NCBI RefSeq assembly: GCF_029626155.1
Contig: NZ_JARUBL010000001.1
Location: forward strand, 124,001-188,000
DNA length: 64,000 nucleotides
Reading direction: 5' to 3'
Source of the DNA: Solwaraspora sp. WMMD1047
GTDB taxonomy: Bacteria; Actinomycetota; Actinomycetes; Mycobacteriales; Micromonosporaceae
The notes beneath the pieces were generated by a model. The model was not told the origin of the DNA. It did no database searches and worked only from the letters and a program-made list of their open reading frames with translations. A program made the position numbers and the translations under genes. Positions 1,584-45,117 of this stretch are shown here, piece by piece; position 1 is the stretch's first letter; each line of letters begins with the position of its first letter.

Positions 1584-3332
1584 CTACGGGTGGAACTCGC
1601 CGCGCAGGTACTGGTCGCGGCAGGTGCCGCGGCGGATCTTCCCGCTGCTCGTCCGGGCCAGCAGGCCGCGCCGCACCAGGACGAGGTCGTGGACGTCGAC
1701 GCCGTGTCGCCGGGTCACCTCGCGGCGCAGCGCGGCCCGGGTCGCGTCCCGGGCGGCCGGCTCCGCGCCGAGCAGGTCCCGGTTCGCCTCCAGCAGGACG
1801 ATCAGCCGTTCGGTGCCGTCCAGGTCGACGGCGAAGGCGGCGGCCAGGCCCGGGTTCGGTTCCCCGACGGCCTGCTGCACGGTGATCTCGATGTCGTCCG
1901 GGTAGTGGTTGCGTCCCCGCACGATGACGAGATCCTTGAGCCGGCCGGTCACGTGCAGCCGGCCGTCCAGAAGAAAACCCAGGTCACCGGTACGCAACCA
2001 GGGTCCGTCGTCGGTGTCGTCCGCGGCGGCGGGGCGGAGCCGGCCGGCGAACACCTCGGCCGTGCGGTCCGGGCGGGCCCAGTAGCCGTCGGCGACGTTC
2101 GGTCCGCGTACCCAGATCTCGCCGATCTCGCCGTCGGCCAGCCGGTGGTGCGCGGCCGGGTCGACCACCCGGACCGAGACCCCGGTCCGGGGCAGGCCGC
2201 AGGAGACGAGTCGGACCGTGTCGGGCGTGCCGTCCGGGCGCGGCTCGGCCCGGCCGGCGGCCAGCGCGGCCCGGTCGAAGTGCCGGTCGACCGTTCCCTC
2301 GTCCAGCGGCGGGGCGGTCACCGGCAGGGTCGCCTCGGCCAGGCCGTAGCAGGGGGTCGGCGCGGTGGGCCGCAGCCCGCAGTCGGCGAACGCGGCGACG
2401 AAGGCGTCCACCGCCTCGGCCCGCACCGGTTCGGCCGCGACGGTGAGCAGCCGCAGCGAACTCAGGTCGAGGGTGCGTTTCTGCTCGTCGGTGACCCGGT
2501 TGACGCACTGGGCCAGGCTGAAGTTGGGGGTGATGCTCCAGTCCACCTGGTAGTCGGAGATCGTCCGCAGCCAGCGGTACGGGTCCTGGACGAACGCCAT
2601 CGGGCTGATGTGCACCGTGTGCGAGCCGGCCGCGAGCGGGTTGAGCAGCCCGCAGACCAGGCCGAAGTCGTGGAAGAACGGCACCCAGCTGGCGGTCACC
2701 GCGGAGTCCGGGAAGTGGTCGCGGATCTGGCGGTTGGCGGCCGACAGGTTGCGCTGGCTGATCCGCACGCCGGCCGGGGCGCCGGTCGAGCCGGAGGTGT
2801 ACTGCAGGTAGGCCAACGCCTCCGGGGCCAGCTCGGGCGGCCGCCAGTCCGCGCCCGCCGGCGCACCGTCCTGGTCGCCGGCGGGCGGGTCGTCCGCGTA
2901 CAGCAGGTGCCGGGGCGGGCGGTCGAGGTCGGCCAGGACCTGGCGGACCGACGGCGCCGCCCGGCCGGTGGTGATCACGCCCTCCGGTCGGCAGTCGGAG
3001 ATGACCGCCCGCAGCCGGGCCCGGTCCCGGACCACCTCGGGGGCGTGCAGCGGCACGCCGACCACGCCGGCGTAGAGACAGGCCAGAAACCCGATCACGT
3101 ACGCCGGTTCGTGCGGGCAGAGCACCGCCACCCGGTCGGTCGGTCCGCAGTGCCGCTGCAGCCGGGCGGCGAGTGCCCGTACCCGCCGGTCGAGCTCGCC
3201 GTAGGTGAGCGTGGTCGGGACCCCGTCGCGCCGGCCGGAGGCGCTCGGCACCCGGTAGTCGACGAACGTCATCGCCGGCGCCTCCGCGCGCTCGCGCGCC
3301 GTCCGGGCGATCGCCTCGAACAGGTGCTCCAC
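1584..3332 (-). CDS. Fatty acyl-AMP ligase / acyl-CoA synthetase-like adenylating enzyme (ANL superfamily)
   Basis: A 582-residue adenylating enzyme. It has the ATP motif YTSGSTGAPAGV, the HDFGLVCGLLNPL region typical of fatty acyl-AMP ligases, the PCYGLAEATL motif, LRTGDLGF, and the C-terminal catalytic lysine in SSGKIRR. Enzymes of this group activate a fatty or aromatic acid as the acyl adenylate and pass it to a carrier protein. The start is the GTG at 3330-3332, preceded by AGGAAGGGAA; the reading frame stays open further upstream but there overlaps the LmbU gene in another frame. In this cluster it probably loads a starter acid or an acyl side chain. Its carrier partner is not obvious, since the nearest small carrier-like protein (6497) lacks the active serine. 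Confidence 0.87.
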   Translation of the reverse strand: MEHLFEAIARTARERAEAPAMTFVDYRVPSASGRRDGVPTTLTYGELDRRVRALAARLQRHCGPTDRVAVLCPHEPAYVIGFLACLYAGVVGVPLHAPEVVRDRARLRAVISDCRPEGVITTGRAAPSVRQVLADLDRPPRHLLYADDPPAGDQDGAPAGADWRPPELAPEALAYLQYTSGSTGAPAGVRISQRNLSAANRQIRDHFPDSAVTASWVPFFHDFGLVCGLLNPLAAGSHTVHISPMAFVQDPYRWLRTISDYQVDWSITPNFSLAQCVNRVTDEQKRTLDLSSLRLLTVAAEPVRAEAVDAFVAAFADCGLRPTAPTPCYGLAEATLPVTAPPLDEGTVDRHFDRAALAAGRAEPRPDGTPDTVRLVSCGLPRTGVSVRVVDPAAHHRLADGEIGEIWVRGPNVADGYWARPDRTAEVFAGRLRPAAADDTDDGPWLRTGDLGFLLDGRLHVTGRLKDLVIVRGRNHYPDDIEITVQQAVGEPNPGLAAAFAVDLDGTERLIVLLEANRDLLGAEPAARDATRAALRREVTRRHGVDVHDLVLVRRGLLARTSSGKIRRGTCRDQYLRGEFHP

Positions 3333-3403
3333 GGACTTCCCTTCCTGCCTGCGCGGTCGATCGACTGAGACGGTCCCGGGTCCGGCGAGCGGCCGCGCAG
3401 GCG

Positions 3404-4069
3404 TCAGGCGACGCCCTGCCGGGTTTCCAGGGCCCGGCTGGCGGCGTGGTCGAGGATGTTGAACATCCAGGCCAGCAGGTCCAGCTCCTCGCTCTTGGCC
3501 GCCTCCTGCCAGCGGCGCTTCTGGTCGGCGATCACGTTCATCTGGATGTGGATGACCTCCCGCGTCCGGTGCTCCGGGTCGCGGCTGGCCTTGAGTTGGC
3601 GGCGCAGTTCGTTGCGCGACCAGGAGCACCGTTCGGCCTCGTCCAGCCACTTGTCCTGCTCGGCCTCGGAGAGGCTGGCCACCTCGGCGTGGTGCTGGAA
3701 GCTGAGCTTGTTGCGGCGCCGGGCGGGGCTGAACTGCCGGGCCACCCAGGCGTAGTTGCGCAGCGTCTGGTAGTCCAGCGAGGTCTCGGCGATGGCCCGC
3801 TTGTAGCGGCCGGGGTACTGGGCCTGGCCGTAGATGAGCCAGTCGCCGAGCCACCAGCCCGAGGCGTCGGTGACGATGAAGATCTGCCGGCCCAGATGCC
3901 GCCAGGCATCGATGGACATACCCTGCGGGATGTAGAGGGAGGTCCGGCGCTTCGCGGCCGTACCGTCGATAGAAAGCCGGGAGACCTCGCCGGGGATCGA
4001 AGCTCCTCGACTCGGCGCCGATGGGGCCATTTCCACCACGAGATTGCCGCCGCCGTTTCTGTTCGACAT
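3404..4069 (-). CDS. LmbU-family pathway regulator
   Basis: A 221-residue homologue of LmbU, the lincomycin pathway regulator (NovE and similar proteins of other clusters belong to the family). Diagnostic segments are SLYIPQGMSIDAWRHLG near residues 45-61, WWLGDWLIYGQAQYPGRYKRA, LDYQTLRNYAWVARQF, LSFQHHAEVASL and WSRNELRRQL. Known members are DNA-binding cluster activators. I chose the ATG at 4067-4069 because GAGGGG lies seven bases upstream. A GTG 15 bases earlier is in frame. The gene sits inside the minus-strand operon between rmlA and the acyl-AMP ligase. An 11-bp-phased direct repeat lies about 65-85 bp upstream and is a candidate operator. Confidence 0.9.
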   Translation of the reverse strand: MSNRNGGGNLVVEMAPSAPSRGASIPGEVSRLSIDGTAAKRRTSLYIPQGMSIDAWRHLGRQIFIVTDASGWWLGDWLIYGQAQYPGRYKRAIAETSLDYQTLRNYAWVARQFSPARRRNKLSFQHHAEVASLSEAEQDKWLDEAERCSWSRNELRRQLKASRDPEHRTREVIHIQMNVIADQKRRWQEAAKSEELDLLAWMFNILDHAASRALETRQGVA

Positions 4070-4132
4070 CCGCACACCCCTCACATGAATTGGCGTCAGT
4101 GGGATCGCATTCTGCCGGCGTCGACTGGACGC

Positions 4133-4198: not shown

Positions 4199-5089
4199 TC
4201 AACGGGACGCCAGGGCGGGGGCCATTGCCCTAGCAACCTCCATTACATACCGGCCGTACGGCGAATGTCTCATTTGAATGCCTCTGTCATAACACTGATC
4301 TGCGTCGATGAATCCCATCCGGAGGGCGATTTCCTCCAGGCACGCGACCCGGACCCCCTGCCGGTTCTCCAGCACCTGGACGTACTGGCTGGCCTCCAGC
4401 AGCGACTGGTGGGTGCCGGCGTCCAGCCAGGTGAAGCCCCGGCCCAGGCCGACCAGCCGGGCCCGGCCCTCGGCCAGGTAGTGCCGGTTGATGTCGGTGA
4501 TCTCCAGTTCGCCGCGGGCCGACGGGCGCAGCCCGCGGGCCAGCTCGACCACGTCCGGCGGGTAGAAGTACAGCCCGGTGATCGCGTTGTCGGAGCGCGG
4601 TTGGAGCGGCTTCTCCTCGATCGAGATCAGCCGTCCCTCGTCGTCGACCTCGCCGATGCCGTAGCGCTGCGGGTCGATGACCGGGTAGCCGAACAGGACA
4701 CAGCCGCTCAGGTCCGTCCGGGCCGCGTGCAGCAGGTCGTGGAACCCCGCACCGTGGAACAGGTTGTCACCGAGGATGAGGGCGCACTCCTCGCCGGCTA
4801 GGTATCCTGCCCCGAGGGTGAACGCCTCCGCTATTCCCCGCGGCTCCGGCTGCGGCGTGTAGGAAATGTTCAACCCGAACTGTGAACCGTCGCCGAAGAG
4901 TTCCTGTATCGCGGGCAGGCTGGCCGGCGTCGATATGATCAGGATGTCCCTGATGCCGGCCAGCATCAAGACCGAAACGGGATAGTAGATCATCGGCTTG
5001 TCGTAGATGGGGAGCAGTTGCTTTGACGTCGCAATGGTCACCGGGTGTAGCCGGGTGCCATTCCCCCCGGCCAGGACGATGCCTTTCAT
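4199..5089 (-). CDS. rmlA: Glucose-1-phosphate thymidylyltransferase (dTDP-glucose synthase)
   Basis: The enzyme joins glucose-1-phosphate and dTTP to give dTDP-glucose, the entry to all deoxysugars of this cluster. The 296-residue protein is full length for the family. It has the nucleotide-binding N-terminus MKGIVLAGGNGTRLHPVT, the catalytic SKQLLPIYDKPMIYYP, then LILGDNLFHG, YGIGEVD, SIEEKP, FTWLDAGT and the conserved MGFID near the end. GAGGAGA lies seven bases before the ATG. The partner 4,6-dehydratase (RmlB) is not in the window, so it lies to the left or is supplied from elsewhere. Confidence 0.97.
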   Translation of the reverse strand: MKGIVLAGGNGTRLHPVTIATSKQLLPIYDKPMIYYPVSVLMLAGIRDILIISTPASLPAIQELFGDGSQFGLNISYTPQPEPRGIAEAFTLGAGYLAGEECALILGDNLFHGAGFHDLLHAARTDLSGCVLFGYPVIDPQRYGIGEVDDEGRLISIEEKPLQPRSDNAITGLYFYPPDVVELARGLRPSARGELEITDINRHYLAEGRARLVGLGRGFTWLDAGTHQSLLEASQYVQVLENRQGVRVACLEEIALRMGFIDADQCYDRGIQMRHSPYGRYVMEVARAMAPALASR

Positions 5090-5147
5090 CGGATCTCCTC
5101 ACTGTGTCCCCGAAGCCACGCCACCATACCGTCAGGGAAAGGGAAAC

Positions 5148-6419
5148 ATGCGAATCCTATTCGCTTCGATAGCCGAAAAGACCCACTTCCTGGGCATGGT
5201 GCCATTGGCCTGGGCCCTGCAGACCGCCGGTCACGAGGTCCGGGTGGCCAGCCAACCGGAAATGACCGACGTCATCACCGGAGCGGGGCTCACCGCCGTC
5301 CCGGTCGGCCGGAACCACCGCCTCTACCTGCTGTCGAAGGTGGAGAACACGGTGTCGCCGGGCAAACCGCTGTTCGACATGTCCGACGAGCGGCCGGAAC
5401 AGTTGCGGTGGGACCGGGTCCGGCCGGGCTACGAGCAACTGGTGCAGTGGTGGTGGCGGGTGGTCAACGACCCGATGGTCGACGGGCTGACCGAATACTG
5501 CCGCCAATGGCGGCCGGATCTGGTCATCTGGGAGCCGATCACCTACGCCGCGCCGGTCGCCGCCCGCGCCTGCGGCGCCGCACACGCCCGATTCATGTGG
5601 GGCTTCGACGTCTTCGGCCGGATGCGCGAGCAGTTCCGGCGACTGCGCGACGATCAGCCACCGCAGAAGCGGGCCGATCCGTTCGCCGAGTGGCTCGGCG
5701 GCCGGGCCGAGCGGCACGGGGTGGAGTTCACCGAGGAGATGGTGACCGGGCAGTTCACCATCGACTACCACCCGGAATCGGTGCGGATCGACGGCGGCGG
5801 GCACCACGTGCCGATCCGTTACGTGCCCTACAACGGCGTCTCGGTGATCCCGCCGTGGCTGCGGGTCCCGCCGGAGCGACCCCGGGTCTGCCTGACCCTC
5901 GGCACCGCGGCGGCGGAACGGCTCGGCGGCTACGAGGTGCCGGTCGCGGAGCTGCTCGACGCGCTGGGCGGCGAGGACATCGAGGTGGTGGCGACGGTCT
6001 CCGAGCGCGAACAGGCCCGGCTGGGCAGCGTTCCGGACAACGTCCGGCTGGTCTCCTTCGTACCGCTGCACGCCTTGGTGCCGACCTGCTCCGTGGTGAT
6101 CCATCACGGCGGGGGCGGTTCGTACTGCACCCCGATGCTGAACGGCGTGCCGCAGCTCATCCTCCCCAAACTCTTCGACGCCCCGCTGCGGGCCCGCAGC
6201 CTCACCGAGTACGGCGCGGGGCTGACCATCGACAGCGACGCGGCGACCGGGGCGAACGTCCGGGAGCACGTGTTGCGGCTGCTCGGCGAGCCATCGTTCC
6301 GGCAGCGCGCGAGTCGGCTCCGCGAGGAGGTGCTGGCCATGCCGACCCCCAACGAGCTGGTGCCGGAGCTGGAGCGGCTGACCGCCAAGTACCGGCCCGG
6401 TCCCGGTCAGCCGGGCTGA
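5148..6419 (+). CDS. Glycosyltransferase A (GT1, EryCIII/DesVII-like)
   Basis: A 423-residue GT-B fold transferase that should move a deoxysugar from TDP to the aglycone or a growing sugar chain. The N-terminus FASIAEKTHFLGMVPLAWAL and AGHEVRVASQPEMTDVI are typical of antibiotic glycosyltransferases. The donor-binding half has RVCLTLGTAA and the motif VIHHGGGGSY near residue 320. It is closest to glycosyltransferase D of this window (both have GGGGSY and VPPWLRVPPERPRVCL), whereas B and C have GGPGTL. The start is the ATG at 5148, preceded by AGGGAAAGGG; the frame is open upstream but this is where homology begins. No DesVIII/EryCII-type helper protein is present in the window. Confidence 0.92.
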   Translation: MRILFASIAEKTHFLGMVPLAWALQTAGHEVRVASQPEMTDVITGAGLTAVPVGRNHRLYLLSKVENTVSPGKPLFDMSDERPEQLRWDRVRPGYEQLVQWWWRVVNDPMVDGLTEYCRQWRPDLVIWEPITYAAPVAARACGAAHARFMWGFDVFGRMREQFRRLRDDQPPQKRADPFAEWLGGRAERHGVEFTEEMVTGQFTIDYHPESVRIDGGGHHVPIRYVPYNGVSVIPPWLRVPPERPRVCLTLGTAAAERLGGYEVPVAELLDALGGEDIEVVATVSEREQARLGSVPDNVRLVSFVPLHALVPTCSVVIHHGGGGSYCTPMLNGVPQLILPKLFDAPLRARSLTEYGAGLTIDSDAATGANVREHVLRLLGEPSFRQRASRLREEVLAMPTPNELVPELERLTAKYRPGPGQPG

Positions 6420-6449
6420 CCGCCCCCGGTGGGCCGGCGCCGGCTGTCT

Positions 6450-6481
6450 CGCTGGCGGGACGTGACCCGTCACCGCCAGCG
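6450..6481. terminator. Hairpin between convergent genes
   Basis: CGCTGGCGGGACG pairs with CGTC-A-CCGCCAGCG around a short loop, giving a 13-bp stem with one bulged base. It lies in the 77-bp gap between glycosyltransferase A and the convergent carrier-like gene, where a bidirectional terminator is expected. There is no U-tract, as is common in actinomycetes. Confidence 0.55.
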
Positions 6482-6496
6482 GGGTGGCGGCCCGGA

Positions 6497-6823
6497 TCAG
6501 GACTGCCCGTCAGCCGACCCGGAGCCGGCCAGCTCATCGACGAACTCGATGAAATCCTCGACGGTGGTGCCGGTGAACCGGTGCATCTGGGCCAGGATGG
6601 GGGCGTTGATCGCGCTCTCCAGCGACAGGACCAGACTGATGAAATGATCCTGGCCGAGGTCGCTCATCTGGGCCTCGGCGGGTGGCTTGCCGCCGCCGGT
6701 CGCCTCGTTCCAGACCCGGGTGACCTCGCTCCTGATCCAGGTGTCGGTGTCGAAATGGGCAATGGGATCAAAATCCAGCATAGGGTCGACGTCCCGTGCC
6801 GATCTGAAACTCTCCATACTCAT
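6497..6823 (-). CDS. Carrier-protein-like protein lacking the phosphopantetheine serine
   Basis: A 108-residue protein whose second half looks like an acyl carrier protein: helix I (WIRSEVTRVWNEA), then SDLGQDHFISLVLSLES, and a final helix TVEDFIEFVDELAG. In true carriers the middle motif is DLGxDSL. Here the serine position is histidine (H60), so the 4'-phosphopantetheine arm cannot be attached in the usual way. The codons read GAT CAT TTC. The ATG at 6821-6823 has AAGGAG eight bases upstream; the ATG two codons later is an alternative. The gene stands alone, divergent from the sugar ketoreductase operon. It may be a scaffold or an inactive partner of the ketosynthase or acyl-AMP ligase. The carrier fold is inferred from motif alignment only. 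Confidence 0.72.
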   Translation of the reverse strand: MSMESFRSARDVDPMLDFDPIAHFDTDTWIRSEVTRVWNEATGGGKPPAEAQMSDLGQDHFISLVLSLESAINAPILAQMHRFTGTTVEDFIEFVDELAGSGSADGQS

Positions 6824-7042
6824 CGGAAACACTCCTTCTCGGTACGGCCGAATGCGACTGGCGCGCCTTCCCCGTAGGCCGCTGCATCGTACGCTCCGGA
6901 TGCCCGACGTCGAGTCGGCCCTATTCCGTCCGGTCGAATCCGCTATTCGGCCGGCCCGGTGTGCGCGACCTTGACAGCTAACCGGCAATCACTACACGAT
7001 CGCACCGTCCACACCTTGGGGGCGCCACCCGATAGGGGAGCC
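6824..7042. promoter_or_regulatory. Divergent promoter region with TTGACA box
   Basis: A 219-bp gap between two divergent starts. TTGACA at 6972-6977 followed after 16 bases by TACACG at 6994-6999 is a weak sigma-70-like promoter for the ketoreductase operon. A GCTAAC element (6978-6983) overlaps the spacer. The same hexamer recurs upstream of glycosyltransferase D and of the SARP gene. Confidence 0.4.
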
Positions 7043-8041
7043 ATGCCATTGCAACTTCACCGCAGCGAGGTCTCCCCACTCGGGCTCGGTGTCCTGGGCT
7101 GCGCCGCGATCGCCACCAAACGCGTTCTGCCGGCGGCGGCGCTCACCGACGGAATCGAACTGGTGGCGGTGGCGAGTCGGACTCCGGCGAAGGCCGAAGC
7201 GGTGCGCGCGCGGTTCGGCGGTCGGGTCGTCGAGGGATACGACCAGCTACTGGAACAGCCCGACATCGATGTCGTCTACGTGCCGCTGCCCTGTGGCCTG
7301 CACGCCGAGTGGATCGAACGCGCGTTGACCGCCGGCAAGCACGTGCTCGCCGAGAAGCCGCTCACCACCAGCCACGAGGAGACCGCCCGACTGGTCGGCC
7401 TGGCCAAGGCGAACGGGCTGGTGCTGCGGGAGAACTACATGTTCCTGCACCACAGCCAGCATGCCTTCGTCCGGGACCTGGTGACCGCCGGCGCGATCGG
7501 TGAGCTGCGTACCTTCTCGTCGACGTTCGCCATCCCGCCCCGGCCGGCCGACGACATCCGGTACCGCCGCGAACTCGGCGGCGGCGCACTGCTCGACGTG
7601 GCCGGCTATCCGATCCGGGCCGCCCAGCTCTTCCTCGGCTCCGAGATCGAGGTGGTCGGAGCGATCCTGCGGCCCGACCCGGCGGTCCAGGTCGACGTCG
7701 GCGGCGCGGTGCTGCTGCGCCGGCCGGACGGGGTGACCGCACAGCTCACCTTCGGTCTGGACCACCTCTACACGTCCAACTACGAACTCTTCGGCAGCAC
7801 CGGCCGGATCTCGGTGGACCACGTCTTCACGCCCCCGGCCGGCTACCGGCCGTCGGTGCGGGTGGACCAGCAGAACTACCACGAACGCCGGTCCCTGGAG
7901 CCCGACGACCAGTTCGTGAACTCGCTTACCGCGTTCGTCGACGCGGTGCGCACCCCGGGGGGTGCGGTAAGCGACGAGACCATCGTTACCCAGGCGAAGC
8001 TCGTCGACCAGGTGCGGCGGCTGGCTGGTGACCGGGACTGA
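7043..8041 (+). CDS. TDP-hexose 3-ketoreductase (Gfo/Idh/MocA family)
   Basis: A 332-residue NAD(P)-dependent oxidoreductase. It should reduce the 3-keto group left by the 2,3-dehydratase and so complete 2-deoxygenation. The Rossmann start is GLGVLGCAAIATKRVLPAA. VYVPLPCGLHAEW and the catalytic lysine motif LAEKPLTTS follow, and the family signature GGALLDVAGYPI lies near residue 190. The start is the ATG at 7043 with GGGGAG just upstream. It leads a plus-strand run: 17 bp downstream begins the 3-dehydratase, then two glycosyltransferases. KijD10-type and similar ketoreductases are the closest functional match I can name. Confidence 0.9.
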   Translation: MPLQLHRSEVSPLGLGVLGCAAIATKRVLPAAALTDGIELVAVASRTPAKAEAVRARFGGRVVEGYDQLLEQPDIDVVYVPLPCGLHAEWIERALTAGKHVLAEKPLTTSHEETARLVGLAKANGLVLRENYMFLHHSQHAFVRDLVTAGAIGELRTFSSTFAIPPRPADDIRYRRELGGGALLDVAGYPIRAAQLFLGSEIEVVGAILRPDPAVQVDVGGAVLLRRPDGVTAQLTFGLDHLYTSNYELFGSTGRISVDHVFTPPAGYRPSVRVDQQNYHERRSLEPDDQFVNSLTAFVDAVRTPGGAVSDETIVTQAKLVDQVRRLAGDRD

Positions 8042-17456: not shown

Positions 17457-17786
17457 TGAGGCAGTTACATATTCACATCGCCTGCGGGCCTGCCCTGTCA
17501 TACCGTTCTTAGTCCGTTTTGGAGCTATAAAAAGCCATCTGACGTTTGCGGTGGGCCGGCCCCATCCGCCTCCTCGGCGACCCACCGCGGCCGCGGTTGA
17601 CACCGGCGTACGAGGCTCGCCATGCTCCTCTGACCAGCCGGTCATCGCAGGTGGAGCCGGTTGCGACAGGCGCGGGTGGCCGGTCGTCGCCGGCCCGCGC
17701 CGGGCCCGCCGATCCCCCCTCGGCGGCGGCCCGCAAGGCCCGTGACAGTGCCGTCAGCTTCCTCTCCCCTTTGCGAGGTGCCCGTC

Positions 17787-19043
17787 GTGGAAGAGCCCGG
17801 AACCCACGCCCGCCGGGTGGTCGTCACCGGCCTCGGCGCGATAACACCGGTTGGTTTGAGTTGGCCGGAAACCTGGTCGAACCTGGTCGACGGCCGCAGC
17901 GGCATCAACACCCTCAGTGAGCTCGAGGTGACCGACCTGCCGGTGCGGATCGGCGGCGAGGTGCGTGACTTCCGCGCTGGCGAGCACCTGCCGGCGCCAC
18001 TTGTGCACCGCACCACCCGCACCGTGCAGCTGGCGCTGGCCGCCGCCGGACTCGCCCTGCGCGACGCCGACCTGGAGATCGACGCCGACCTCGCGCCCAG
18101 GGTCGGCGTCCTGCTCGGGTCGGTGGGCACCCCCACCGCCGCGGTCCTCAGCGCGAACGCCGCCTTCACCGCCCGCGGTTTCAAGGGCATCAGCCCGTAC
18201 GCCTTCGCCGGCACCGGCATCGTCAGCCCGGCCGCCGAGGTCGCGCTGCACATCGGCGCGGAGGGACCCGGCGCCGGGCTGGCCACCGCCTGCGCGACCG
18301 GCGGCAGCTGCCTCGGCGAGGCGATGTGGATGATCCGAACGGGACGCGCCGACGTGATGGTCGCCGGCGGCGCGGACGACACCCTCACCCGGTTCGATCT
18401 CGCGACCGCGGCCCGGGCGAACGCGCTGTCCCGCCGCAACGACGACCCCGAGGGGGCCTCCCGCCCCTTCGACCGGGAGCGGGACGGTTTCGTGATGAGC
18501 GCCGGGGCCGGCCTGCTGGTGTTGGAGGAGGCCGAGCACGCGGTGCGCCGCGGCGCGCGGATCCACGGCGAGCTCGTCGGCTACGGGTCGAGCACCGACG
18601 CGTACCACCTCGCCGCGCCCCGGCCCGACGGGGTCGCCGTGGAGCGGGCGATGCGGGCGGCGCTGGCGGAGGCGCGGATCGGACCGGGCTCGGTGGACTA
18701 CGTCAACGCCCACGGCACCAGCACCCAACTCAACGACGCGACCGAGGTCGCCGTCCTCCGGCGGGTCTTCGGCGAGCACGCCACCTCGGTACCGGTCAGC
18801 TCGACCAAGAGCATGACCGGGCACATGCTGGCGGCGGCCGGCGCCATCGAGGCGATGGTGATGATCGAGACCTGCCGTACCGGGGTGGTGCCGCCGACCA
18901 TCAACTGCGATGATCCCGAGGATCCGGCGATGAACTTCGTGCCGCACAAGGCACAGGAACACGCGGTCGAGACCGCGATGAGCAACTCCTTCGGCTTCGG
19001 CGGCCACAACGTCGTACTGATCGCGCGGCGATGGCGCCCGTGA
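17787..19043 (+). CDS. Beta-ketoacyl-ACP synthase (KAS II/FabF type)
   Basis: A 418-residue condensing enzyme. The active-site cysteine is C169 in ATACATGGS. The two histidines are H309 in NAHGTST and H346 in KSMTGHMLAAAGA, with K341 in between, so the catalytic set is complete. The C-terminal GFGGHN motif is present. It is a single ketosynthase without a chain-length-factor partner. With the following ACP, adenylating enzyme, tyrosine ammonia-lyase and ketoreductase it forms a small fatty-acid-like module that probably extends an activated aromatic or acyl starter with malonyl units. The GTG at 17787-17789 has GAGGTG six bases upstream. Confidence 0.92.
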   Translation: MEEPGTHARRVVVTGLGAITPVGLSWPETWSNLVDGRSGINTLSELEVTDLPVRIGGEVRDFRAGEHLPAPLVHRTTRTVQLALAAAGLALRDADLEIDADLAPRVGVLLGSVGTPTAAVLSANAAFTARGFKGISPYAFAGTGIVSPAAEVALHIGAEGPGAGLATACATGGSCLGEAMWMIRTGRADVMVAGGADDTLTRFDLATAARANALSRRNDDPEGASRPFDRERDGFVMSAGAGLLVLEEAEHAVRRGARIHGELVGYGSSTDAYHLAAPRPDGVAVERAMRAALAEARIGPGSVDYVNAHGTSTQLNDATEVAVLRRVFGEHATSVPVSSTKSMTGHMLAAAGAIEAMVMIETCRTGVVPPTINCDDPEDPAMNFVPHKAQEHAVETAMSNSFGFGGHNVVLIARRWRP

Positions 19044-19195
19044 CGATCCGGGGGCGCCGGTAGGAATACGTCGGCGTCTCGCCGGCGGGACAACCAATGA
19101 GCTGCGCATTCTTGCTGGGTGGCTTGTTGAATGGCCATACCGTAGTTAATGTGCTGGCCGTAGCTGCCGGCACCCTGGCGACGCGGGAGAATCGA

Positions 19196-19471
19196 ATGTC
19201 CGCTGATATGACCACCACCTCCGGTGTGGATCCCGAACAACTCTCCCAGCTGTCCGAAATCATCGAGCGCGTGGCCGGGGTACCGGCCGCCGAGGTGAGC
19301 CCGGAGAAATCGCTCGTGGAAGACCTCGGCCTCGATTCGCTGGCCATCGTCGCGGTCGTCTTCGCGCTTGAGGAAAGCACCTCGGGTGACATTCCCGAGG
19401 AGTCGTTGGCGGGCGCGGTCACGGTAGGGGACCTCCTGCTCCTGGCCAGCCAGGCGAGCTCGCAGAATTGA
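19196..19471 (+). CDS. Acyl carrier protein
   Basis: A 91-residue carrier protein. The phosphopantetheine serine is S48 in EDLGLDSLAIVAVVFALEE, so unlike the protein at 6497 it is competent for priming. The ATG at 19196 has GGGAGA six bases upstream. The frame stays open upstream, but that part carries no carrier homology. It lies between the ketosynthase (152 bp upstream) and the adenylating enzyme (53 bp downstream) and is likely the tether for the aromatic acyl chain made by this operon. Confidence 0.92.
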   Translation: MSADMTTTSGVDPEQLSQLSEIIERVAGVPAAEVSPEKSLVEDLGLDSLAIVAVVFALEESTSGDIPEESLAGAVTVGDLLLLASQASSQN

Positions 19472-24736: not shown

Positions 24737-26149
24737 TTAAGTGCTTTCCGGGCCGGGTTTGGTGAGGTTGGTGGTGTAGGTGGCTGTGGTTGATGCTGGT
24801 TCGGTTCGTTTCTTGCCGCGGTAGGGCGAGGTAGGGCGTTTGACCGCTCGGGGGCTGGAGCGTGACCGGCGTGGGCCGGTCTGATCGTCTAGGAGTTCGT
24901 CAGCGACCGTGATCAGTGCGCTGGTGAGGTCCCGGCTGGTGGTGATCGCGGTGTTGATGACGTGTCGACGTGCCAGGCGTAGGCAGGTCAGGAACGGTAG
25001 TCGGTCGGGGTCGAGGTGATGCTCGGCGGCGGTCGTGGTGATCAGGTCCCGTAACGCTTGGTAGACGATGAGATGAGCCCACATCTCCTGCCGGACACCG
25101 GTGGGATCGTGGGAACGTAGTACGACCTTCGACCCTCGCTGGTGGGTCTTGAGGTTCTGGTAGCTGTTCTCTGTTTCCCAGCGTTGGTGGTAGCAGTCGA
25201 TCAGCTGTCCCGCGGTGATGTCCTGCGGGCAGAGTAGGTTGGTGACCAGCCGGTACCGCTCGGTCCGGCATGCCGTCACGCCGTGTCGGTTGGTGGTGGC
25301 GACCGTGACGGTGTACTCGATCACCCGGACGGTGATGACCGGTTCGGTGCCCCGCCGCCGCCCTGGTGGGGGTTTGATGACTGATATCCAAGATCCATCT
25401 GGCAGTGCCCTTACCACGGGCAGGTGGCGGTTGGACTTCATCCGCCAGAGCAGTCCTGCGCCGGTGGCCTCCGCTGCCCGCCACAGGTCATAGCCGTGAA
25501 AGTTCCGGTCAGCGACGAGCAGCATGTCTTCCCGTAGCAGGGGAAGCAGGGCGCGGGCCTGGACCATTTCCGCTTCGCGGCCGAACGACGCACCGATGAC
25601 CGCATGCGTGCCACACTCGATCAACGTCAACAGCCACAGCCGTGGGTAGCCCGCCGTGTTGCCACCGCCACCCGCATCACGACCAAAAGCGGCCTCATTG
25701 GCGGGACTGTCGGCCGTCTGCAGCTTGGTGCCGTCCCAGGCCACGACCCGCCGTCCGGCCACGAACACGCCGGGCATGCCCGGCTCGCCCCGCGCCCCGG
25801 CCACCCGCTCGAACAGATATCTCAGAGGCGCCTCCCCCAACCGCTGACGGGCCTGAGAAAACGCCGAGGTGGTAGGGGTGATCCTGGCCAACGCGGGCCA
25901 GCCCGAAACCAGCAACCGCCACACCTGCCGGTAGCCGTCCGTACTGAACAGGCACATCGCCAACACAAACAACACCACCACCCGAGCCGGCAGCAGACGT
26001 ACCCGCCGCTGAGTGACTCCGGTCGCCGCTACCGCCTCATCGATGAGCTCTCGCGGCACCGACTGTGACAGCACGCCCAGCCCGATGTGTTGCCACGCGG
26101 CGCCCGCACCAAGCCGCGGCAACGCATCCATGGAAGAATCCCCGGACAA
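24737..26149 (-). CDS. IS4-family transposase
   Basis: A 470-residue DDE transposase. It has an N-terminal IS4-type domain (RVRLLPARVVVLFVLAMCLFS, TTSAFSQARQRLG). The catalytic core includes VAWDGTKLQTADS and LLVADRNFHGYDLW. The IS4 YREK-like region is CYHQRWETENSYQNLKTHQRG. The tail is basic. The TTG at 26147-26149 has AGGAG five bases upstream; an ATG at 26129-26131 with a weaker GGGG site is the alternative. The AGGAG and the TTG lie in one arm of a 14-bp inverted repeat. The frame is intact throughout, so the protein should be functional. Confidence 0.93.
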   Translation of the reverse strand: MSGDSSMDALPRLGAGAAWQHIGLGVLSQSVPRELIDEAVAATGVTQRRVRLLPARVVVLFVLAMCLFSTDGYRQVWRLLVSGWPALARITPTTSAFSQARQRLGEAPLRYLFERVAGARGEPGMPGVFVAGRRVVAWDGTKLQTADSPANEAAFGRDAGGGGNTAGYPRLWLLTLIECGTHAVIGASFGREAEMVQARALLPLLREDMLLVADRNFHGYDLWRAAEATGAGLLWRMKSNRHLPVVRALPDGSWISVIKPPPGRRRGTEPVITVRVIEYTVTVATTNRHGVTACRTERYRLVTNLLCPQDITAGQLIDCYHQRWETENSYQNLKTHQRGSKVVLRSHDPTGVRQEMWAHLIVYQALRDLITTTAAEHHLDPDRLPFLTCLRLARRHVINTAITTSRDLTSALITVADELLDDQTGPRRSRSSPRAVKRPTSPYRGKKRTEPASTTATYTTNLTKPGPEST

Positions 26150-43435: not shown

Positions 43436-44293
43436 GTGACGGATGAAGAGTGGGCGCCGACCGGCGTCGACACCAGCGTCCCCAGTGTCGCCCGGGTCTA
43501 CGACTTCTTCCTCGGTGGCAAGGACAACTTCGCCATCGATCGGATGGTGGCCGAAAAGGCCAACGAGATCACTCCGGACGGCGCGAAGGCCGGACGCGCC
43601 AACCGCGCCTTCCTCCGCCGGGTGGTTCGGCATCTGGTGGCTGACCAGGGGATCACCCAGTTCATCGACGTCGGTTCGGGGTTGCCGACGCAGGGGAATG
43701 TGCATCAGATCGCCAAGGAGTCGAATCCGCAGGCGAAGGTGGTGTATGTCGACAATGATCCGATCGTGTTGGCGCACGGTCGGGCGTTGCTCGCTGACGG
43801 TGGTTCTGCGACGGTGATCCAGGCGGATCTGCGGGAGCCGAACGCGATTCTGGAGCATCCGGAGGTGCGTCGGTTCATCGACTTCGATCGGCCGGTCGGT
43901 TTGTTGCTCTTCGCGATCCTGCACCATCTCTCCGACGACGAGGACCCGGCCGGCGTCACCCGGACGCTCATCGACGCGTTGCCGCCGGGTAGTTGGGTGG
44001 CGATCTCGCACTTCCGGGACCCGGGCGAGGCGCACCCGGATGCGTCGGCCAGGGCGCGGGAGGTCGAGAAGCTGTTCAACCAGACGCTCGGCACCGGACG
44101 GTGGCGCAGTGACCAGGAGATCCTCACCTACCTGGACGGTCTCGACGTGGTTGAGCCGGGACTGGTGCCACTGCCCGACTGGCGTCCCGACGCCGGCGAT
44201 CCGCCGTCGGAGCAGACCTACACGTACCACACCTTCGTCGGTGTGTTGGCGCGGAAGCCGGGCGTATCCAGCGAGGATGGAGGTGCGGGATGA
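43436..44293 (+). CDS. SAM-dependent methyltransferase, PF04672 type, copy 1
   Basis: A 285-residue member of the actinobacterial S-adenosyl methyltransferase family formerly called DUF574. Typical parts are PSVARVYDFFLGGKDNFAIDR, RANRAFLRRVVRHL, the SAM motif QFIDVGSGLPTQGNVHQIA, VVYVDNDPIVLAHGRALL, and FAILHHLSDDEDP. The substrate is unknown for the family; members often occur near antibiotic or developmental genes. GGAGGAGA lies five bases before the GTG at 43436. It overlaps copy 2 (ATGA). Bases 43610-43899 are identical to the second copy, including silent sites. Confidence 0.9.
   Translation: MTDEEWAPTGVDTSVPSVARVYDFFLGGKDNFAIDRMVAEKANEITPDGAKAGRANRAFLRRVVRHLVADQGITQFIDVGSGLPTQGNVHQIAKESNPQAKVVYVDNDPIVLAHGRALLADGGSATVIQADLREPNAILEHPEVRRFIDFDRPVGLLLFAILHHLSDDEDPAGVTRTLIDALPPGSWVAISHFRDPGEAHPDASARAREVEKLFNQTLGTGRWRSDQEILTYLDGLDVVEPGLVPLPDWRPDAGDPPSEQTYTYHTFVGVLARKPGVSSEDGGAG
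43610..43899 (+). repeat. 290-bp exact duplicate shared by the two methyltransferase genes
   Basis: 43610-43899 equals 44464-44753 at every base, with an offset of 854 bp. It covers the SAM-binding core. Third codon positions here contain many more T than the flanking coding sequence (for example GTG TAT GTC, TCG AAT, GGT). Both copies share this odd composition, which points to recent gene conversion or duplication. Confidence 0.93.
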
Positions 44294-45117
44294 CCGACGA
44301 GGAATGGGTGCCCACCGGCGTCGACCCCACTGTCCCCAGCGTCGCCCGGGTTTACGACTGGATGCTCGGCGGCAAGGACAACTTCGCCGTGGACCGGATG
44401 GTGGCCCAGAAGGCGCTGGAGATCACTCCGGACGGTCCCGAGGCCGGCCGCGCCGGTCGGGCGTTCCTCCGCCGGGTGGTTCGGCATCTGGTGGCTGACC
44501 AGGGGATCACCCAGTTCATCGACGTCGGTTCGGGGTTGCCGACGCAGGGGAATGTGCATCAGATCGCCAAGGAGTCGAATCCGCAGGCGAAGGTGGTGTA
44601 TGTCGACAATGATCCGATCGTGTTGGCGCACGGTCGGGCGTTGCTCGCTGACGGTGGTTCTGCGACGGTGATCCAGGCGGATCTGCGGGAGCCGAACGCG
44701 ATTCTGGAGCATCCGGAGGTGCGTCGGTTCATCGACTTCGATCGGCCGGTCGGCTTGTTGCTCTTCGCCATCCTGCACCACCTCTCCGATGAAGAAGACC
44801 CGGCCGGAATCGCCAGGATGATGATCGACGCGTTGCCGTCCGGCAGTTGGGTGGCGATCTCGCATTTCCGGGACCCGGGCGAGGCGCACCCGGACGCGTC
44901 CCGCAAGGCGCGGGAGGTCGAGAAGCTGTTCAACCAGACGCTCGGCACCGGACGGTGGCGCACCGACGACGAGATCCTCACCTACCTGGACGGCCTCGAA
45001 CTGGCCGAACCGGGCCTGGTGCCGGTGGCGGACTGGCGGCCCGACCCCGACGAGCCGCCCTCGGAGCAGACCGACACCTACCACACCTTCGCCGGCGCAC
45101 TGGCCCGCAAGCCGTGA
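44290..45117 (+). CDS. SAM-dependent methyltransferase, PF04672 type, copy 2
   Basis: A 275-residue tandem paralogue of the preceding gene, translationally coupled by an ATGA overlap. The ends have diverged (DWMLGGKDNFAVDR, TYLDGLELAEPGLVPVADW), but the SAM-binding core is identical at DNA level over 290 bp. Both copies keep all visible motifs, so both may be active, perhaps as a heterodimer or on different substrates. A 20-bp hairpin follows directly. Confidence 0.9.
   Translation: MTDEEWVPTGVDPTVPSVARVYDWMLGGKDNFAVDRMVAQKALEITPDGPEAGRAGRAFLRRVVRHLVADQGITQFIDVGSGLPTQGNVHQIAKESNPQAKVVYVDNDPIVLAHGRALLADGGSATVIQADLREPNAILEHPEVRRFIDFDRPVGLLLFAILHHLSDEEDPAGIARMMIDALPSGSWVAISHFRDPGEAHPDASRKAREVEKLFNQTLGTGRWRTDDEILTYLDGLELAEPGLVPVADWRPDPDEPPSEQTDTYHTFAGALARKP

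Follow-up and report, generated by a model that had tools for sequence, protein, structure and literature searches.

An intact carrier-family protein lacking the phosphopantetheine serine in a biosynthetic cluster of Solwaraspora sp. WMMD1047

We examine a small gene within a window of 64,000 nucleotides (the whole stretch of DNA that was analysed), which encodes a carrier-like protein of 108 residues, here called P0002. The original prediction had marked the frame at 6497-6823, and an open 108-residue frame does lie there, on the minus strand, which had been left unstated. The frame starts with an ATG at 6823 and its stop codon ends at 6497; an AAGGAG sequence ahead of the ATG confirms the good ribosome site that had been claimed. 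The features are listed by coordinates in the window, strand and identity, with the basis of each in brackets.

6497..6823, minus strand (read 6823 -> 6497): P0002, serine-less carrier-like protein, 108 aa (translation, family profile, model)
6650..6652, minus strand: codon of Gln58 (CAG), in the column of the prosthetic-group serine (ungapped leave-one-out profile alignment and helix register)
6644..6646, minus strand: codon of His60 (CAT), serine +2, taken as the serine site in the original prediction (sequence and profile alignment)
6755..6823, minus strand: N-terminal extension of P0002, residues 1-23, predicted disordered (nearly all pLDDT below 50)
5007..6419, plus strand: EryCIII-like glycosyltransferase, convergent with P0002 (Pfam PF21036 and PF06722)
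7043..8041, plus strand: Gfo/Idh/MocA oxidoreductase, divergent from P0002 (Pfam PF01408; start read from the sequence)
4199..5089, minus strand: nucleotidyl transferase, RmlA-like (Pfam PF00483)
1584..3338, minus strand: AMP-binding ligase, start approximate (Pfam PF00501)
17661..19043, plus strand: ketosynthase (Pfam PF00109 and PF02801)
19097..19471, plus strand: P0004, conventional acyl carrier protein (ACP) with serine, DLGLDSL (Pfam PF00550, 41 bits)

The stop of the glycosyltransferase gene, whose true start is probably downstream of 5007, lies 77 bases from the P0002 stop codon. On the other side, 219 bases separate the start codons of P0002 and the oxidoreductase. This gene order is divergent as had been described, while the divergent promoter proposed with it found no counterpart in a scan of 6380-7080 for sigma-70-type promoter and terminator consensus sequences, which returned nothing. 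Among the neighboring enzymes, the RmlA-like protein is 62-65% identical to counterparts at five other loci (L026, L056, L064, L065 and L066), and the ligase at 1584..3338, which we take to be of the fatty-acyl-AMP-ligase (FAAL) type, has a DIP2-like C-terminal match under the cut-off (19.9 of 27 bits). P0002 itself matches nothing in Pfam (at E up to 0.1) or NCBIfam.

The host genome (G000, 8.16 Mb) contains one clear relative of P0002, the paralogue P0003, which lies 19 kb off and is 31% identical over 70 residues. P0003 keeps the serine (DLDSFS), and its match to the Pfam phosphopantetheine-site family falls below the cut-off, at 17.0 of 20.8 bits. It is flanked by a GNAT-like gene on one side, with no Pfam match and a weak likeness to spermidine acetyltransferases, and by FdtA and DegT sugar genes on the other. 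Left of the window, from L004:16587 onward in the host, we also see P0005 (PF00550), a further freestanding carrier with a flavin-dependent halogenase-like gene after it; with P0005 added, the number of carrier-like genes within about 37 kb comes to at least four.

Judged by its sequence, P0002 belongs, as a diverged member, to a family of freestanding carriers that share the motif DLDSFsxVQ. The family as gathered consists of 35 distinct domain sequences, some of them near-copies, of which 32 have serine at the prosthetic-group site; the other three have glutamine (P0002), glutamate (L055) and proline (L023). Since the searches were led by serine-bearing sequences, the figure of 32 in 35 leans towards serine. 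An ordinary ACP (L012, DIDSL) was left out of the set, as were the weak matches L060 and L071-L074, two of which (L073 and L074) resemble ordinary carriers. Searches with the family profile gave matches in 28 of 341 genomes of one bacterial family (f19, E up to 1e-6), in 2 of 246 genomes of one genus (g70, E up to 1e-5) and in 7 of 300 genomes of the host's own family (E up to 1e-4). With P0003 as the only query, matches were found in 5 of 354 genomes and, in a separate set, 10 of 394. The proline variant was missed by the profile search of f19 and found with the P0003 query, so further serine-less members may exist. DLDSF-type carriers may in general be poorly annotated, as P0003, the one member tested, falls under the Pfam cut-off.

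Searches led by P0002 return far less. In 354 host-family genomes it finds the host itself, P0003 and two weak places (L006 and L007), the second being part of a long frame in which a carrier-domain stretch contains GGHS. An exact-peptide scan of genome contigs gave 87 pattern matches and no relatives, plasmids gave no match, and a three-row alignment with P0002 at its head gave 47 pattern matches in genome contigs, of which 3 were relatives, all serine-bearing. In the searched portion of public genomes, including the 354 of the host family, we find no orthologue of P0002 with the same loss of serine. A family tree leaves P0002 unplaced: the three serine-less rows and the outgroup form its longest branches, that of P0002 being extremely long, and a single origin of the serine loss in P0002, L055 and L023 is still conceivable from these sequences.

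Which residue of P0002 stands at the serine site? The motif of P0002 reads MSDLGQDHFISL, and its codons GGC CAG GAT CAT TTC contain the GAT CAT TTC originally reported. SDLGQDHF had been matched to the carrier motif SDLGxDSL, with His60 in place of the serine. We built a profile from the 32 serine-bearing relatives, with P0002 left out, and find that residues 47-99 of P0002 align to it ungapped with a score of 36 bits, whereas the conventional ACPs P0004 and P0005 score 13 bits and 1 bit. In this alignment Gln58 occupies the serine column, Gly57 and Asp59 replace the aspartate before it and the phenylalanine after it, His60 is at serine +2, and Ser63 is at serine +5, where glutamine is usual. 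The predicted structures give the same register. Helix II spans residues 57-72 in the model of P0002 and 43-57, beginning at Ser43, in that of the serine-bearing member L025 (both models built on alignments of four sequences), and this offset of 15 maps Ser43 to Gln58. The likeness to SDLGxDSL is thus a register shift of two. Keeping His60 as the serine equivalent would need a two-residue deletion within helix II, against both the leave-one-out profile and the helix register, and we reject it; histidine at serine +2 occurs in 0 of the 34 other family members, which answers the proposed check of its conservation. The broader claim stands, namely that P0002 has no serine at its prosthetic-group site.

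The change is not confined to one residue. DLDSF-type carriers have a shorter loop and the motif DL-D-S-F, seen as LDSF in DltC, and the D-S-F of this motif is absent from P0002, which has G57-Q58-D59 instead. Of 17 columns conserved in at least 85% of members, P0002 keeps nine (D55, L56, L66, L68, E69, L77, F83, G85 and F94), close to the ten kept by the glutamate variant and the eight kept by the proline variant. The eight lost include D-1, S, F+1 and Q+5, and outside the motif a Glu -> Ala and a Phe -> Val change; some are radical, as with Phe -> Asp at +1. As far as the aligned sequences tell, several of the losses cluster around the priming site, and much of the core is retained.

We now consider whether this core would still fold as a carrier. 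An AlphaFold2 model of P0002 (mean pLDDT 72, pTM 0.57) has helices at 26-42, 57-72, 76-82 and 88-101, with pLDDT of 73-88 across the ten-residue blocks from 31 to 100. With this model as the query, the best 50 rows of a Foldseek search are mostly carrier proteins, at a best E of 0.12 and with none below 0.001. In VIA-align the best Z is 8.6, and the ten best rows are carriers, as are most of the best 50; PDB 8zt4, an entry that we group with the altemicidin system described below, is among the best 50 structural rows, and one row there is a designed scaffold (8f5i_A). The comparison with ACP folds that had been suggested as a check therefore returns a predicted four-helix carrier fold. It is important to note that a Z near 8 is not decisive alone for a small helical bundle; the sequence profile points independently the same way. 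A sequence search of solved structures gave nothing meaningful with P0002 as the sole query, and with the family alignment as query ACPs were among the matches listed, at E values from 2e-4 upward. Solved ACPs (Thermotoga TM0175, PDB 1vku; E. coli ACP; DltC, PDB 4bph and 4bpf) share the four-helix fold, at Z 7 to 8.6 to P0002, and have the prosthetic-group serine that P0002 lacks.

P0002 is thus an intact serine-less member of a carrier family in a biosynthetic cluster. From its sequence we infer that it almost certainly cannot be primed by a phosphopantetheinyl transferase; if it works at all, it probably does so by binding partner proteins rather than by carrying cargo. Our best reading, behind which we put about half of our confidence, is that P0002 is a pseudo-carrier: a descendant of the DLDSF-type carriers that has kept the four-helix core, cannot be primed and docks non-covalently. 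The ancestor would have been a freestanding DLDSF-type carrier. Loss of the entire priming motif (Asp-Ser-Phe, together with the glutamine at serine +5) would abolish loading by phosphopantetheinyl transferase, and the unloaded protein would hold no acyl or aminoacyl group. Its remaining surface could still dock the enzymes served by its relatives, such as the AMP ligase, the ketosynthase, sugar-modifying enzymes or the glycosyltransferase, and most likely it would act during the sugar/acyl tailoring stage of the cluster, as an adaptor or competitor that binds non-covalently. The scaffold or decoy role first suggested for P0002 is compatible with this.

This reading is supported by the 36-bit ungapped profile match, by glutamine in the serine column and by a helix register like that of the serine-bearing control. 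It is supported further by structural rows that are carriers, by a core kept while the priming site was lost, by the intact frame, and by two other intact serine-less members with different residues (Glu and Pro) at the site. Against it, the absence of an orthologue with the same change means that there is no sign of selection for the serine-less form, and since the serine-bearing P0003 and the conventional P0004 are encoded in this region too, P0002 may be a redundant protein whose gene is in decay. The eight lost columns, some of them radical and some outside the motif as in drift, the extremely long branch with its failed placement in the tree and the weak Foldseek E-values also count against it.

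Pseudoenzymes are well known, and we know of hardly any natural freestanding pseudo-carriers; a search of the open-access literature gave no natural freestanding serine-less carrier among the matches listed. The nearest cases, as far as the excerpted sources describe them, are a truncated carrier and inactive ACP domains in polyketide synthase experiments, one set of which was mutated by design. In PUFA synthases, according to the excerpted text of PMC5067506, a construct with one inactive Ser-to-Ala domain among five gives about 250% of the output of a four-domain enzyme, and only about 30% of that of the fully active five-domain parent. A carrier domain without its serine can thus help by structure, and P0002 may matter in a similar way; the domains described in that excerpt are engineered and sit inside a megaenzyme, whereas P0002 is natural and freestanding. 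If such adaptors are real, they would escape genome mining that scores carriers by their serine, and they would be examples of how carrier docking surfaces can be reused.

The same sequence could also belong to a relic. Here P0002 would once have been the second carrier of the pathway, the position that L050 has in a sister cluster, became dispensable after P0003 and P0004 took over, lost its serine and is now drifting, a possibility that we regard as substantial while short of even. Evidence for it comes from this sister cluster, in another genome (L064 in G938). The host proteins and their counterparts there are 65% identical for an aromatic amino acid lyase, 64% for the RmlA-like protein, 55% over 408 residues for the ketosynthase, and 45% over 595 residues and 52% over 333 residues for two AMP-ligase-like genes (the first being the ligase at 1584..3338). 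The sister set also includes a P0004-like ACP, a glycosyltransferase and a gene that we presume from sequence likeness to be RmlB-like, as with the other neighbors so labelled below. Its family carrier, L050 (87 aa), keeps the serine in DLDSF and sits directly before the ketosynthase; it is the one family carrier found in G938, where the host has two, P0003 with serine and P0002 without. The very long branch of P0002, its eight missing conserved columns of 17 and the lack of an orthologue among 354 host-family genomes also speak for a relic. What a relic explains less well is the state of the gene, with its intact frame, good ribosome site, predicted fold and core GC3 of 0.92 (weak evidence, see below), and the presence of two more intact serine-less members, one of which is the only family member found in its genome. 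Two stories fit the data: either P0003 or P0004 took the task of P0002, which now drifts, or their presence freed P0002 for a non-covalent role. Were it a relic, the locus would capture the replacement of a carrier between two sister clusters.

The two other serine-less members, both with intact frames, help the non-covalent role a little. The glutamate variant L055 (LDEF, 99 aa; L058:9769-10065, plus strand, contig C61 of genome G854) lies on the same strand as an EryCIII-like glycosyltransferase gene and starts 15 bases past the stop codon of that gene; as the sole family member found in G854, it does not duplicate a serine-bearing one there. By eye, its cluster seems to hold YcaO/TfuA-type genes. 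The proline variant L023 makes up the C-terminal portion of a longer frame (L056:9574-10998, minus strand, contig C225 of genome G390), whose N-terminal part we take by eye to be a luciferase-type monooxygenase. A same-strand gene for an EryCIII-like glycosyltransferase follows closely downstream of this frame, and G390 has a serine-bearing family member on another contig.

Gene neighbors differ between the two kinds of member. An EryCIII-like glycosyltransferase gene lies within 1.5 kb of 3 of 3 serine-less members vs 7 of 32 serine-bearing ones, and a GNAT-like gene within 1.5 kb of 0 of 3 vs 26 of 32, in counts where the members are related and some loci are short contigs that ended early. 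Hypergeometric figures of 0.013 for the GNAT-like gene and, by hand, about 0.018 for the glycosyltransferase (3 of 3 given 10 of 35) are rough and post hoc. The pairing of a GNAT-like gene with a DLDSF-type carrier is itself a recurrent arrangement (26 loci, for example L025:9299-10186 and L005:3316-4240). Such carriers, among them P0003, L024 of Glycomyces fuscus and L025 of Streptomonospora nanhaiensis, share with P0002 a homologous domain, the helix register (in the one modelled) and glycosylation-rich clusters; they have the serine and the GNAT-like gene, and P0002 has neither. The excerpted text of PMC6331615 describes GNAT enzymes of altemicidin biosynthesis, SbzI and SbzC, that take an acyl group from the carriers SbzG/SbzK, a precedent that by analogy suggests that the GNAT-paired serine members may hand over an acyl or aminoacyl group; P0002 has neither the GNAT neighbor nor the serine. 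SbzG was not among the matches listed in our sequence searches (the best 60 of 76 and 18). Of the six serine-bearing members without a GNAT-like gene, four (L022/L026 of Nocardiopsis sp. MG754419, L050, L052 and L054) adjoin RmlA- or RmlB-like genes. P0002 is likewise near an RmlA-like gene and has no GNAT-like gene within 1.5 kb; these carriers keep DSF where P0002 has GQD.

A stronger version of the non-covalent role would make the serine-less members a class: the family would have lost serine more than once, and pseudo-carriers would be kept to act as non-covalent adaptors of EryCIII-type glycosyltransferases or of linked sugar enzymes, one of them joined to a luciferase-type monooxygenase-like part. 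We think this unlikely. A related proposal, that P0002 binds, activates or stabilizes the neighboring EryCIII-type glycosyltransferase, strikes us as a little more doubtful again. In macrolide pathways, P450-like helper proteins of the EryCII/DesVIII kind activate or stabilize glycosyltransferases; those have a P450-like fold and P0002 has a predicted carrier fold. The proposal draws on the glycosyltransferase beside all three serine-less members, with L055 and L023 on the same strand as theirs. It is weakened by resting on gene adjacency in three cases picked out post hoc, in glycosyltransferase-rich clusters with some loci at contig ends, by a hand-calculated chance figure from non-independent sequences, and by the fact that P0002 and its glycosyltransferase are convergent, on opposite strands.

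That P0002 is still loaded with cargo or a prosthetic group elsewhere, for example at His60 or Ser63, is highly improbable: Ser63 and Ser67 are in helix II and His60 is near the site, yet Ser63 lies well within the helix, the recognition motif is lost too, and we know of no transferase that modifies a helix-internal serine or histidine.

We give equally little credence to the idea that a normal serine is hidden by a mistake in sequencing or assembly, or by a local frameshift that is compensated nearby. Serine-bearing homologues had been named as evidence that would point to mutation or to such an error, and they do exist (32 of the 34 other members). The best compensating pair of indels gains about 5 bits of profile score; the same best score is reached in 9 of 100 synonymous recodings, no better than chance, so the frameshift is not supported. 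The CAG of Gln58 is at least two substitutions from any serine codon and the neighboring motif codons differ as well. With all three lines of evidence an error is unlikely, in keeping with the original statement that this is not a reading error, and the relatives suggest instead mutation away from a serine-bearing ancestor. GC3 is 0.92 in core codons 26-100 and 0.60 in residues 1-25; 0.92 is reached by 94 of 114 in-frame stretches of cluster genes and also by 86 of 570 off-frame stretches, so GC3 is weak support for the frame.

Several further genes lie around this cluster. The product of window 3404-4084 (minus strand) has no Pfam match and counterparts 48-56% identical in L024, L025, L058, L068 and L075; it is presumably an LmbU-like regulator. 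Left of the window, the host has a RamC/LanC-like lanthipeptide synthetase gene with an adjoining GNAT gene (L004:6109-9944), and, by eye, the sister cluster in L076 seems to have such a pair at its side. An IS4-type transposase gene (24737-26149, minus strand) stands beside the right part of the cluster. Farther on, the neighboring plus-strand genes at 43436-44293 and 44290-45117 encode products that start almost alike (TDEEWxPTGVD) and are probably a tandem duplicate.
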